NCBI RefSeq assembly: GCF_026011715.1
Contig: NZ_BRVM01000001.1
Location: 134,689 to 198,688, forward strand
Reading direction: 5' to 3'
From: Cytobacillus sp. NCCP-133
Lineage (GTDB): Bacteria; Bacillota; Bacilli; Bacillales; Cytobacillaceae
Length of the DNA stretch: 64,000 nucleotides
Below, in pieces: positions 46,361 through 52,161 of this stretch; position 1 is the stretch's first letter, and each line of letters opens with the position of its first letter. The notes under the pieces were generated by a model, which was not told where the DNA came from, did not search any database, and saw nothing but the letters and a program-made list of their open reading frames with translations. The position numbers were made by a program, and so were the translations under genes.

Positions 46361-46397
46361 AAAAATTAAGCTGCCTTGTCAGGCAGCTTAATTTTTT
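46361..46397. terminator. bidirectional terminator between ypuA and lysA
   Basis: AATTAAGCTGCCT and AGGCAGCTTAATT form a perfect stem of 13 bp or more with loop TGTC. A- and T-runs on both sides. Confidence 0.88.
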
Positions 46398-47707
46398 ATC
46401 TTTTCATTTATTGGCAAATCCAATCGCAATAAATCCTCGTAAGTCTCTCTCTTAACTACCAGATTGGCTTCTCCATTCTCAACAAAAATCACAGGCGGCC
46501 TTGGAATCCTGTTATAGTTGTTGGCCATTGAATATCCATAGGCTCCGGTACAAAAGACAGCTAAAATATCTTTATTTTCGGCTTTCGGAAGCCGCAAATC
46601 CCAAATTAGCATATCGCCGGATTCACAGCATTTACCCGCAATTGAAACAGTCTCTTCCAGTTTTTCCAAAACTTTGTTTGCAAGAACGGCTTCATATTTT
46701 GCCTGATAAAGAGCAGGCCTGATATTATCGCTCATGCCGCCGTCCACAGCCAAATAACTTCGTACATTCGGAACCTCTTTCCGGGATCCAGTCTGGTATA
46801 AAGTTATTCCCGCATCCCCAACAAGGGACCGGCCAGGCTCAATCCAAATCTCCGGCATTTTCATTGAAAAATGGTCAGCCTGATTTTTAACTTCTTTAAT
46901 AATCTCTTCCACATATTGAGAAGCAGGAATTGGATCGTCCTCCCCCGTATAGCGGATTCCAAATCCTCCCCCCAAATTCAGAACCTCGGGTTCGTATGAA
47001 TAAGCTTCCTTCCACTCGTTCATCTTTTCAAAAATTTTCTTAGCTGCAAGAATAAAGCCTGTTGTATCGAAAATTTGAGAACCAATATGGCAATGAAGCC
47101 CAAGCATTTCTATCCACTTTGAATCCAAAGCCTTTTTCAATGCCTCTTCAGCCTGGCCGTTTTGCAGATCAAATCCGAATTTTGAATCCTCTTGCCCTGT
47201 TAAAATATAGTCATGAGTATGGGCTTCAATTCCTGGTGTAACCCTGAGAAGAATCTTCGTTTGGACAGAGAGTTCTTCACATATCTCCTCGAGAAGCTCT
47301 AATTCATAAAAATTATCTGCCACAATGCAGCCCACATTATGCTTTAAAGCCATCTCCAATTCTTCTCTGCCCTTATTGTTCCCATGAAAATGGATTCTTT
47401 CAGGAGGAAAGTCTGCAGCAAAGGCTGTGTATAATTCCCCGCCTGAAACCACATCAAGGGATAAGCCTTCCTCATCAACCAGCTGTACCATTGCCACTGT
47501 GGAAAAAGCTTTGCTTGCATATGCCACTTGTGCTGTAATTCCAAGTTTTTCAAAAGTTTGTTTAAATCCTTTTGCTCTTTCTCTTATTAAAGCCACATCA
47601 TAAACATATAATGGTGTCCCAAATTGGCTAACTAGCTCTACAGTGTCCATCCCGCCAATTTCAAGATGCCCTTTATCGTTAACTTTCATGGTACCGTGAA
47701 AATACAT
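46388..47707 (-). CDS. lysA: diaminopimelate decarboxylase
   Basis: PLP enzyme that makes L-lysine from meso-diaminopimelate. 439 residues. The PLP-binding lysine is K66 (AYASKAFS), with the HCHIGSQ motif near 201, GGGFGIRY near 246 and CESGDML near 359. GAGGGGG precedes the ATG. No lysine riboswitch is visible in the short upstream gap. It is followed in sporulating bacilli by spoVAF upstream, as here. Confidence 0.96.
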   Translation of the reverse strand: MYFHGTMKVNDKGHLEIGGMDTVELVSQFGTPLYVYDVALIRERAKGFKQTFEKLGITAQVAYASKAFSTVAMVQLVDEEGLSLDVVSGGELYTAFAADFPPERIHFHGNNKGREELEMALKHNVGCIVADNFYELELLEEICEELSVQTKILLRVTPGIEAHTHDYILTGQEDSKFGFDLQNGQAEEALKKALDSKWIEMLGLHCHIGSQIFDTTGFILAAKKIFEKMNEWKEAYSYEPEVLNLGGGFGIRYTGEDDPIPASQYVEEIIKEVKNQADHFSMKMPEIWIEPGRSLVGDAGITLYQTGSRKEVPNVRSYLAVDGGMSDNIRPALYQAKYEAVLANKVLEKLEETVSIAGKCCESGDMLIWDLRLPKAENKDILAVFCTGAYGYSMANNYNRIPRPPVIFVENGEANLVVKRETYEDLLRLDLPINEKIKN

Positions 47708-47895: not shown

Positions 47896-49377
47896 TTATT
47901 TCACCGGCTGCTTGTAGCGGTTCTTCGTTTGGACAATGCTTGGACGAATTTTTGAACCAGGCATTGAACGCCGAATTAATATTTGTGTAAAAGCAACTGG
48001 ACTAAACGGAATAAATGGCCATAAATATGGAGTATTCAAAGACTTAATGCCTGCAAGAACCAAGATAACCAAGGTCAGTCCAACTACAAGGCCAGGTGTA
48101 TGGAAAATCGCTACAGCTACAAGTAATCCCAGCCTTACTATTTTATTGGCAATACTCAGCTCATAGCTAGGTGTCGCAAATGTGCCAATTGCTGCCAAAG
48201 CTACATATAATATGACTTCTGGTACGAACAAACCAACATCTATGGCAATTTGCCCTATGAGCACGGCTGCAATTAAACCCATAGCGGTCGAGAGCGGTGT
48301 CGGCGTATGAATAGCGGCAATCCTTAGAAACTCGATCCCGACATCAGCAAGGAACAACTGCACGATAACCGGCACATTTGTTTCTTCATTCGGACCGACA
48401 AACGCAATTCTTTCAGGCAATAGAGAAGGTTCTAAAACAAATAAAAACCAAAGCGGCAAAAGCACGATTGAAGCCATTAAACCTAAAAAACGAATCCAGC
48501 GCACAAAAGTCCCGACTGCCGGTGATTGCCTGTATTCTTCGGCGTGCTGCAAATGATGAAAATAAGTAGTAGGTGTAATAATGACACTTGGCGATGTATC
48601 AACAAAAACGATAACATGTCCTTCCAGCAAGTGGGCAGCTGCTACGTCAGCCCTTTCTGTGTATCGGACTAGCGGGAAGGGGTTATAGCCTTGTTTCAAT
48701 ATAAATTCCTCAACCGTTTTATCAGCCATTGTGATTCCATCTATTTCAATGGCTTTAATTTCTTTTCTTATTAAATCAATTAAATCTTTATTGGCAACAT
48801 CCTTAATATAACCTATGGCAACATCTGTCTTGCCTCGCTCACCAACCCGCATTATTTCAAAGCGAAGTCTTTCATCCCTTATCCTTCTTCTAGTTAATGC
48901 TGTATTTACGATAATATTTTCAACATATCCATCTCGTGAACCGCGTACAACTTTTTCGGTATCCGGTTCCTGCGGTGTCCTTCCCGGATAACTTCGGACA
49001 TCTACAACAAGGGCTACACCTTCTCCCTCTACTACAATAACAATAAGTCCGGAAAGGACCTGGTCAACCAGTTCATCCATTGTTTTTATCTTTTCAACCG
49101 ATTGGTGCATGATTCTGTTTTCTACTATCTCAAACAGTTTCGTTGAAAGTTTTTCATTATCGTTAATTTCAACTAACCCTTCAACGATTTCAATAATAAA
49201 CTGGGTATCGGTCAAGCCATTTATATAATAAAAATGGACATCTTTTCTTAAAACCTTCAGCTTGCGGACCCCTAAATCAAAACTATCACCCAGCCCAACT
49301 CTTTCTTTCATATATCTTTCTATTTCGTGCACGGATTCTGAAATGGGTATTTTATCTTTCTTTTTGCTGTCTGCCAT
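47896..49377 (-). CDS. spoVAF: stage V sporulation protein AF
   Basis: 493 residues, the same length as in B. subtilis. A GerA-type architecture: soluble N-terminal domain (1-280), then five or so membrane segments, with [20 protein letters not shown] near 257. SpoVAF helps germination signalling rather than forming the DPA channel itself. Its ATG lies 26 nt inside the spoVAEa end; AAGGAG precedes it. Confidence 0.95.
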
Positions 49378-49939
49378 AAAAGCCGCTCCTTTCCAATACG
49401 AGTTCTACTGCCTGTCTGGTAATGGGTGAACCTTTGTCATAATGATCTTTCTTTGACATTTTGCCGATATCCCCGATTCCGACTATAATCGGAACATCTA
49501 ATTGATCGAGACAATATACGGTATCCCCATTGATGCGACCAATTTCCATCTCAGGCACGCCAAACTTATCAACTCCATAGGGTGTCAATTCTCCATTTTG
49601 GTCAATGCATACATCTACTTTTGTCCATTCAGCCTGCCTCGTTTTTGAGGCTACTGCAATGATGCCCAAAACCTCGATGTCTTTATGGCACGCCACATAT
49701 TTTAAGGCATTCTCCCCGGCACCCTCCCCAATAAATCCGCTGTCATCAAACATGACCAAAACTGGATCATGAGAAACCTTTTTAATTAGCTTAATGATCT
49801 GCTGGCCGGTTAGAACAGAGGGATTCCCGTGCGACAAGGATAAGCACCTGCCCCCAACTTCCTTGGCAACAGATTCAACTGTTTTCCTTGCATAGTCGTC
49901 TCCATCAGTTATAAGAATGACGTGCCTCCGATCATCCAT
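49352..49939 (-). CDS. spoVAEA: stage V sporulation protein AEa
   Basis: 195-residue soluble protein with a Rossmann-like start ([16 protein letters not shown]) and conserved [20 protein letters not shown]. It is encoded in spoVA operons next to spoVAF. Here it follows spoVAB directly with a 59-nt gap and GGAAAGG before its ATG; the usual spoVAC, spoVAD and spoVAEb are missing between them. Confidence 0.93.
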
Positions 49940-49998
49940 AGTCGTTTTTCCTTTCCGAATCCATCTTGTTTTAGCAAAATCTTTTTCCAGTCATTCCG

Positions 49999-50421
49999 TT
50001 ATCTATTTACAAAATAAATCCATTGAAATAGAGAACCGATCACTTTTCCGAAAACAAATGCCATCAGCAAAATGGCAATCTTTCCATCAACCCCTATTCT
50101 TTTTGCCAGAATGGGGAACACATTCAGAACCTCTGTTAAGGCAGCGGCAAGCATACCTACAAATATGCCCGCTGCAAGTCCAAGCGGGATTAACAGGAAT
50201 GGGGTAAAAAATAAAACAGGATTCCAGAGTGTTGCGATTGCGCCTGCTAATGCACCCAAAATCACCGCAGCTTCATAATAGTGAATCATTTTCATTGTTT
50301 TAGTCAGCTGGGTCAGTCTTGGAATAATGCCCAGAACAGCTAAAAAAGCAACAAATCCTGACCCAACAGCCACTCCCCCTGCAAATCCAATTATCATTAC
50401 CAATACAACATTAATGGTCAT
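49999..50421 (-). CDS. spoVAB: stage V sporulation protein AB
   Basis: 140-residue membrane protein with about four spans. Family motifs GFVAFLAVLGIIPRLTQLTKTM near 24 and GMLAAALTEVLNVFPILAKRIG near 88 are intact. It overlaps the spoVAA end. I prefer the ATG at 50421; a TTG one codon upstream is possible. Needed for uptake of dipicolinic acid into the forespore in B. subtilis. Confidence 0.94.
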   Translation of the reverse strand: MTINVVLVMIIGFAGGVAVGSGFVAFLAVLGIIPRLTQLTKTMKMIHYYEAAVILGALAGAIATLWNPVLFFTPFLLIPLGLAAGIFVGMLAAALTEVLNVFPILAKRIGVDGKIAILLMAFVFGKVIGSLFQWIYFVNR

Positions 50422-51031
50422 CAATGCGCTTCATACTCTCCTTGTTCTCATGCAAAGCAACGTAATTATCTAAATCAAGCTGATAATTAAACATTTCCAC
50501 TTCCAAAGGGCTTGGCTCTTCATTAAGCCGTTTTTTAAATACATGATTAAAAAAAATAATCATTCCTAGGCCAAGACCTATTGAATATGGAATCTGAAAA
50601 ATAAGCGGCTTGCTATCCACCTCTCCGGTAATGATTGTGTATATCCTCAGCTGAACAGCCTGCATGCTGACATCTTCATGAAAGTTCATAATGGCTAAGG
50701 CAGCCCCGATAAATAGAAGCAGCCATACCAGCAGAAAAAGCGGAAAGGAAACTTTACGCTTCTTTGCGACGATTTCAACAATCCCTTGTGCCGGCCCTAT
50801 CGATTGGACTTCCATATTCGGAAATAAATTGGTTATGGCACGTATCACTTTCATAACATCAATAACAACTATATTTCGGTCATTAACAGTTACCTGATAC
50901 AATGCCAGTTTGCAAAGCGGTTCATAGATTTCCTCATCCGCGATAACTTGAGCAATGTCCTTGAGAAATATGACTTCATCTGGCCTGACCTGCAGCCGAT
51001 GCCGCAAGCGAATGTAAACCGTTTTTTCCAT
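50411..51031 (-). CDS. spoVAA: stage V sporulation protein AA
   Basis: 206 residues, identical in length to B. subtilis SpoVAA. N-terminal soluble domain (about 1-90) and two membrane segments (about 98-118 and 150-172), ending in an acidic tail with SPLEVEMFNYQ. The ATG at 51031 gives the family N-terminus; a GTG three codons upstream sits on the ribosome site. First gene of the spoVA operon, downstream of sigF. Confidence 0.94.
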   Translation of the reverse strand: MEKTVYIRLRHRLQVRPDEVIFLKDIAQVIADEEIYEPLCKLALYQVTVNDRNIVVIDVMKVIRAITNLFPNMEVQSIGPAQGIVEIVAKKRKVSFPLFLLVWLLLFIGAALAIMNFHEDVSMQAVQLRIYTIITGEVDSKPLIFQIPYSIGLGLGMIIFFNHVFKKRLNEEPSPLEVEMFNYQLDLDNYVALHENKESMKRIDDH

Positions 51032-51380: not shown

Positions 51381-51420
51381 AAAAAAAAGACCGGAATGGA
51401 TTTTACAAATCCATCCGATC
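51381..51420 (-). terminator. terminator of the spoIIA operon, overlapping the sigF 3' end
   Basis: GATCGGATGGATTT and AAATCCATTCCGGTC form a long stem, followed on the minus strand by nine T. The left arm encodes the last codons of sigF. Confidence 0.85.
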
Positions 51421-52161
51421 TTTCATTTCCTGCAGTATCTTTTTTTCGAGACGCGAAACCTGGACCTGTGATATCCCTAGCCTAGCTGCCACTTCAGATT
51501 GTGTTTGATCTTTATAGTAGCGAAGGTAGACAATCAATCTCTCCCTCTCGTCCAATTCACGTATCGCTTCTTTTAGAGCAATTTTATCAAACCATTTGCC
51601 TTCATTTCCATCATCTATCTGATCAAGCAGAGTGATCGGGTCACCATCATTTTCATACACCGTTTCATGTATGGATGAAGGGATGCGGCTTGCCTCCTGC
51701 GCTAGGATAATATCCTCTGGAGAGATTTCAAGATGCTCGGAAAGCTCCTTTACAGTTGGGATGCGGCCCAAAGTTTTGGACAGTTCATCCTTGGCCTTCC
51801 TGATCTTATTCCCCATTTCCTTTAAAGAACGGCTAACCTTAACAGTTCCGTCATCCCGGATAAATCTTTGGATTTCTCCGATAATCATTGGTACTGCATA
51901 TGTTGAAAACTTCACATCATAACTAAGGTCAAATTTATCAACCGATTTCAATAGACCAATACAGCCGATTTGGAAAAGGTCATCCGGCTCATAGCCTCTA
52001 TTTAAGAATCGCTGGACAACAGACCAGACAAGGCGCATATTTTTCTGGACAATCCGATCCCTTGCACCCTGATCTCCACTTTGGCTTTGCTTTATAAGCT
52101 CCTTGACTTCATGGTCCTTTAAATAGGTTTGGCTCTTATCTGTTTTAACGTCCACATCCAT
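51403..52161 (-). CDS. sigF: forespore RNA polymerase sigma factor SigF
   Basis: First compartment-specific sigma factor of sporulation. 252 residues: region 2 (GYEPDDLFQIGCIGLLKSVDKFD near 59), region 3, and region 4 helix-turn-helix (SEVAARLGISQVQVSRLEKKI near 222). Last gene of spoIIAA-spoIIAB-sigF with 12 nt from spoIIAB and AAGGGAG before the ATG. Held inactive by SpoIIAB until septation. Confidence 0.97.
   Translation of the reverse strand: MDVDVKTDKSQTYLKDHEVKELIKQSQSGDQGARDRIVQKNMRLVWSVVQRFLNRGYEPDDLFQIGCIGLLKSVDKFDLSYDVKFSTYAVPMIIGEIQRFIRDDGTVKVSRSLKEMGNKIRKAKDELSKTLGRIPTVKELSEHLEISPEDIILAQEASRIPSSIHETVYENDGDPITLLDQIDDGNEGKWFDKIALKEAIRELDERERLIVYLRYYKDQTQSEVAARLGISQVQVSRLEKKILQEMKDRMDL

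Follow-up and report, generated by a model that had tools for sequence, protein, structure and literature searches.

Cytobacillus sp. NCCP-133 carries a spoVA operon without spoVAC, spoVAD and spoVAEb and has its only set of these genes in a SpoVA2-type cluster beside spoVIF

The analysed stretch, called the window here, comprises 64,000 nucleotides of the genome of Cytobacillus sp. NCCP-133 (G000; 4.31 Mb in 62 contigs, 99.96% complete). On its minus strand lies a spoVA operon of four intact ORFs in the order SpoVAA-SpoVAB-SpoVAEa-SpoVAF, flanked by sigF and lysA (Table 1). A sequence-only reading had described this order, lacking spoVAC, spoVAD and spoVAEb, and the description was borne out by the Pfam, NCBIfam and TIGR matches and by reading of the junction. 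Among the features of a canonical type 1 operon, SpoVAA, SpoVAB, SpoVAEa and SpoVAF in order behind sigF were present, and SpoVAC, SpoVAD and SpoVAEb, which form the core of the dipicolinic-acid (DPA) channel, were absent from their place between SpoVAB and SpoVAEa in the window operon. The type 1 operon of B. subtilis, with seven genes, has the same order of the four genes behind sigF and a sigma-G-like promoter, but it holds spoVAC-spoVAD-spoVAEb inside the operon (PMC11841064), where the window operon has 59 nt. This spacing and the intact ribosome site of spoVAEa had been read correctly; a Shine-Dalgarno-like GGAAAGG precedes the ATG of SpoVAEa inside the gap.

Table 1. Features of the spoVA operon in the window, its neighbours and the FigP gene of the same genome.
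Feature	Position	Strand	Evidence or remark
sigF	51403..52161	-	TIGR02885 above cut-off; upstream neighbour, as in relatives
putative sigma-G-like promoter 5' of spoVAA	51115..51144	-	TCATG-N18-CATACTA
spoVAA	50411..51040	-	PF12164, E 2e-23; ATG start probably 51031
spoVAB	49999..50424	-	PF13782, E 4e-36
junction, site of spoVAC-spoVAD-spoVAEb in core-keeping operons	49940..49998	-	59 nt including the spoVAEa ribosome site
spoVAEa	49352..49939	-	PF14097, E 4e-83; NCBIfam NF052647 above cut-off
spoVAF	47896..49377	-	GerA family PF03323, E 2e-155; name given by position
lysA	46388..47707	-	TIGR01048 above cut-off; downstream neighbour, as in relatives
FigP (SpoVAF partner, PF11085)	G000:C1:278908-279396		beyond the window, same genome

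The promoter pattern is conserved. The strict sigma-G-like pattern was found 5' of spoVAA in 72 of 111 stretches of up to 300 nt from the window and its relatives, versus a mean of 3.1 in shuffled sequences.

The junction was then compared among relatives. Its length was 26-367 nt (median 54) in 27 congeners, 15-316 nt (median 35) in 80 named loci, which are the best 80 of at least 380, and 17-217 nt in five other genomes; a Shine-Dalgarno-like motif, defined by a generous pattern, was present in 104 of 113 junctions. The distance from SpoVAA to SpoVAEa was 841 nt in the window and 812-857 nt in eight congeners, versus 2629-2644 nt in three core-holding operons. The window genome is a draft of 62 contigs, a state that favours an assembly or annotation artefact at 49940-49998, and an assembly error there had been named as a possible refutation. 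However, like junctions were read in the 27 congeners and in all of the best 80 named loci, and all 35 sampled congeners have the gap, among them the single-contig genomes G001, G003, G019 and G029, each with a single SpoVAD, located in the second cluster described below. An assembly error was thereby excluded, and the probability of an artefact of either kind is essentially nil. The suggestion that the 59 nt might be a conserved scar did not hold, since the lengths vary from 15 to 367 nt among relatives, and a conserved deletion scar was ruled out by this variation. When remnants of the three genes were sought in the 24 junctions of at least 60 nt, only chance-level similarity was found among the matches listed (best E 0.60).

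The sequence-only reading had expected the missing genes elsewhere in the genome, and one set was indeed found on contig 2. The only two PF03862 (SpoVAC/SpoVAEb) matches of the genome and its only PF07451 (SpoVAD) match lie within 1.8 kb of each other at G000:C2:301327-303077. Of the separate expression of accessory and channel genes that the sequence-only reading had proposed, the separation in location was borne out. At this second locus (L003) the order is fabI, cotO, cotY/Z, yjcA-like genes, NJ (a small lipoprotein), SpoVAC, SpoVAD, SpoVAEb, a gene for a DUF421 protein that also matches DUF1657 weakly, SpoVIF, named by its Pfam match, and a helicase gene on the opposite strand. The names fabI, cotO, cotY/Z, yjcA and yjcD are those of B. 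subtilis, which we presume to apply to the neighbours here, with yjcA taken to be DUF1360. The NJ gene lies immediately 5' of the SpoVAC gene, and its lipobox cysteine is nearly invariant in 24 rows; with the gene in place and this cysteine present, it scored 20.4 bits against PF09580 (YhcN/YlaJ family), for which the cut-off is 26.3. In second loci a loose sigma-G pattern within 1,100 nt 5' of SpoVAC was not enriched (9 of 38 stretches, one of which, L100, is a type 1 operon, versus 11.9 in shuffles), and a different element 5' of NJ is conserved in many congeners.

To place the second set, trees of the three proteins were calculated. With the careful method, the 60 rows of SpoVAD were split by one branch into 17 type 1 and 43 type 2 sequences (support 100/100). 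The very long type 1 SpoVAD of G040 was excluded from this tree; it sat on the operon side in a quick tree of 53 rows, in which the type 2 clade of 36 rows had an SH-aLRT of 100 and the longest inner branch separated the types. SpoVAC and SpoVAEb separated likewise, with SH-aLRT values of 100 and 98, in quick trees that include some very long rows. SpoVAC, SpoVAD and SpoVAEb of L003 fall on the SpoVA2 branch, the type names being taken from gene context and published descriptions. Against the solved SpoVAD structure 3lm6, which we take to be that of B. subtilis, a type 1 SpoVAD (G046) scored 567 bits and the SpoVAD of the window genome 342 bits. Pairs of type 1 and type 2 SpoVAD analysed here were 41-54% identical. 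A mean identity of 53% for the two types is given in PMC13059800.

The sequence-only reading had proposed a split operon, in which the same three genes were moved elsewhere. The part that stood is that the accessory genes are apart from the channel genes, and the genes do occur elsewhere, in the order C-D-Eb, as would be expected after such a move. However, the trees place the distant genes in the long-diverged SpoVA2 family, across the longest inner branch of SpoVAD, and therefore they are not displaced operon genes; moreover, an NJ gene precedes them, and both families coexist in 8 of 25 other genomes. A relocation of the operon genes is extremely unlikely. On the evidence of the trees, the type 1 spoVAC, spoVAD and spoVAEb appear to be gone from the genome rather than relocated, with loss and replacement by the paralogous SpoVA2 genes. 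As a side observation, near-identical SpoVAD proteins of the SpoVA2 type occur in different families (L117 in G028, L095 in G044 and L245 in Heyndrickxia sporothermodurans), which fits recent transfer.

The short order is widespread. None of the 36 sampled members of the genus has the core in the operon (the window genome and 27 others by reading of the junction, eight by the distance from SpoVAA to SpoVAEa). Two PF03862 matches were found in 30 of these genomes and four or six in the other six; the extra sets that were typed, in G012 and G028, were SpoVA2 as well and are near-identical, mobile-like copies. Named genomes were scanned by SpoVAEa alignment, and the following counts concern the best 80 of at least 380 confirmed loci, a sample biased toward near relatives. 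SpoVAB lay directly 5' of SpoVAEa in 80 of these 80, and the plain order sigF-SpoVAA-SpoVAB-SpoVAEa-SpoVAF-lysA was found in 72; three of the other eight were without SpoVAF, three without an outer gene, and two had a doubled match. The nearest among the best 80 were Cytobacillus oceanisediminis, C. firmus and 'Sporosarcina globispora' (SpoVAEa identity 90-93%), and the genera represented were Cytobacillus, Neobacillus, Mesobacillus, Rossellomorea, Robertmurraya, Niallia, Heyndrickxia, Peribacillus and species still called Bacillus.

Beyond these, 25 further genomes were analysed, one per genus, of which one belongs to the same family and 24 to other families of the order. The operon contained the three-gene core in 16, none of the core in eight and SpoVAD alone in one. 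In all nine genomes whose operon lacks SpoVAC and SpoVAEb, type 2 SpoVAC and SpoVAEb were present; both cores were found in eight of the 25, and type 1 only in eight. On an unrooted rpoBC tree of 34 genomes (G036 was left out, having no rpoB match), the state with only type 2 required three changes, of which well-supported branches force two, or four with SpoVAD alone counted as a third state. In other families of the order the operon retains its core, so that the short order is most probably derived. The alternative is that the operon originally had none of the three genes and that they entered it afterwards in the lineage of B. subtilis and in others, and the absence of the core from every sampled member of the genus and from the best 80 named loci agrees with it. 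On the other hand, the 16 core-holding operons are scattered over the rpoBC tree, and in 15 of them the core stands directly behind SpoVAB; the B. subtilis operon also holds it (PMC11841064). A small number of losses is a simpler account than numerous insertions at the same site, but on an unrooted tree the counts of changes are blind to gain versus loss. We consider an ancestral short order highly unlikely. The core-less order is not peculiar to this genome, as 35 of 35 congeners and the best 80 named loci share it. In two other genomes, spoVAEa and spoVAD were each found in two overlapping pieces (G035:C1:209820-210355 and G069:C1:3691960-3692959), a frameshift or sequencing error.

Two described systems resemble the second locus. 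The spoVA2 locus of B. anthracis and B. cereus (NJ2-C2-D2-Eb2), as presented in PMC13059800, likewise has SpoVAC, SpoVAD and SpoVAEb of its own type, immediately preceded by a lipoprotein gene, a match by gene order and text; but in those species a complete spoVA1 operon is present as well, whereas in the window genome SpoVA2 is the only core. The spoVA2mob of Tn1546 (PMC5133452) shares the order of a YhcN/YlaJ-like gene followed by C, D and Eb with a DUF421/DUF1657 gene behind, but the copy in the window genome is flanked by yjcA and spoVIF, and the SpoVAD of this copy belongs to another clade. By analogy, the core at L003 is the putative DPA importer of the window genome.

The two sets do not always stay complete. 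In G045 (L073 and L096) the operon reads SpoVAA-SpoVAB-SpoVAD-SpoVAF, and a separate NJ-C-Eb cluster lacks SpoVAD; the genome has no other SpoVAD match. The same two arrangements were found in G065, of the same family (L250 and L256), that is, in both genomes examined of that family. SpoVAD of G045 and G065 is type 1, and SpoVAC and SpoVAEb of G045 are type 2; judging from the sequences, these genomes probably have a hybrid channel of a type 1 SpoVAD with type 2 SpoVAC and SpoVAEb. In G047 (L098, L158) and G066 (L257, L243), two of two genomes, NJ-C-Eb near spoVIF is without SpoVAD, and the sole SpoVAD is elsewhere and of the mobile type, with the context DUF1657-D-DUF1657-2Duf in G047. A further arrangement was seen in G055 (L255, L103), where NJ-Eb lies between yjcA and spoVIF, C-D is on another contig and the type 1 core is complete; a rule that SpoVAC and SpoVAEb never part was ruled out by this genome. 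Reciprocal losses are expected if two sets once coexisted and were partly interchangeable. There may be about an even chance that the DPA machinery is built of exchangeable modules, in which SpoVAA, SpoVAB, SpoVAEa and SpoVAF-FigP would serve either core and SpoVAD of one family would plug into SpoVAC and SpoVAEb of another, type 1 with type 2 in G045 and G065 and mobile-type with resident in G047 and G066. Separately, very long branches were observed for operon-type SpoVAC and SpoVAEb at L068 (G040), L076 (G048) and L079 (G052), all in genomes that also have SpoVA2, perhaps a decay toward loss; a faster evolution of type 1 SpoVAC in dual-core genomes was not detected in 16 genomes (the longest three branches in 3 of 8 versus 0 of 8, Fisher p 0.2; Mann-Whitney p 0.40).

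SpoVAA and SpoVAB are kept without the core, and SpoVAEa and SpoVAF mostly too. SpoVAA was found in 60 of 61 genomes, with either core, and SpoVAB beside it in 24 of the 25 order-level genomes and in all of the best 80 named loci; SpoVAEa was absent in 8 of the 25, with either core. The exception is G050, in which no SpoVAA or SpoVAEa match was found in the genome and no SpoVAB beside the operon; its operon (L100) reads sigF-C-D-Eb-AF. Of the 35 genomes in which SpoVAF and FigP were both read, 31 have the two together and 4 have neither; four further genomes scanned for FigP lie outside this count. The FigP match of G038 has an internal stop, and three of the four absences are Peribacillus, so that perhaps two independent events are involved. 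FigP (PF11085) was missing in the three Peribacillus genomes and in G051, which is also without SpoVAF. At L234, L236 and L241, in Peribacillus deserti and P. kribbensis, the order is sigF-SpoVAA-SpoVAB-SpoVAEa-lysA, without the core and without SpoVAF. Retention of SpoVAA, SpoVAB and SpoVAEa therefore needs neither the type 1 core nor SpoVAF.

Mutants described in PMC13059800 bear on the retained genes. In B. anthracis, DPA content and sporulation were of wild-type level after deletion of the whole spoVA1 operon and were not after deletion of spoVA2. Release of DPA was poor in spores that had only spoVA2, a defect traced to SpoVAF and FigP: mutants of F1 and figP germinated like the spoVA1 deletion, and mutants of D1 and Eb1 like the wild type. 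The same source states that SpoVA2 suffices for DPA import and that the B. cereus spoVA2 locus substitutes for the whole native operon of B. subtilis. B. subtilis spores that lack SpoVAA or SpoVAB germinate prematurely, an effect abolished by deletion of gerA (PMC11841064). The window genome matches a mutant state of B. anthracis, having a SpoVA2 core and lacking D1 and Eb1 with SpoVAF and FigP kept, and by this analogy SpoVAF with FigP may explain part of the retention of the operon. Import by spoVA2 without any spoVA1 or native spoVA gene counts against an action of SpoVAA and SpoVAB on the SpoVA2 core in import. A role of SpoVAA, SpoVAB and SpoVAEa in germination, not in import, is compatible with their retention and with the mutant data.

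From these data we propose, as the probable history, a two-core ancestor, loss of type 1, SpoVA2 as the sole core and the rest of the operon kept for work that does not depend on the core. The ancestor would have held two DPA-channel cores, type 1 in the spoVA operon and type 2 (NJ, C, D, Eb) beside spoVIF, and the type 1 core would then have been deleted from the operon. The SpoVA2 complex would have become the sole DPA importer in sporulation and the DPA exit channel in germination, and the remaining operon genes would have been kept for work independent of the type 1 core. SpoVAF and FigP together would act as an ion channel and so amplify the germinant signal. The tuning of germination is the probable role of SpoVAA, SpoVAB and SpoVAEa, and as to their target we would guess at either the SpoVA2 channel or something upstream of the channel.

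The component parts of this picture are already known; a clade-wide replacement of the core was not found in print in the open-access literature, a search of which gave no statement of whole genera with SpoVA2 as their only core. The annotation 'spoVAC, spoVAD, spoVAEb present' conflates two families. The channel model comes mostly from B. subtilis, in which a single operon holds all seven genes. The lineages in which SpoVAD and SpoVAC/SpoVAEb part company suggest which contacts of the complex tolerate exchange, and the core-less genera are a natural experiment on accessory genes that have been retained without the operon's own core.
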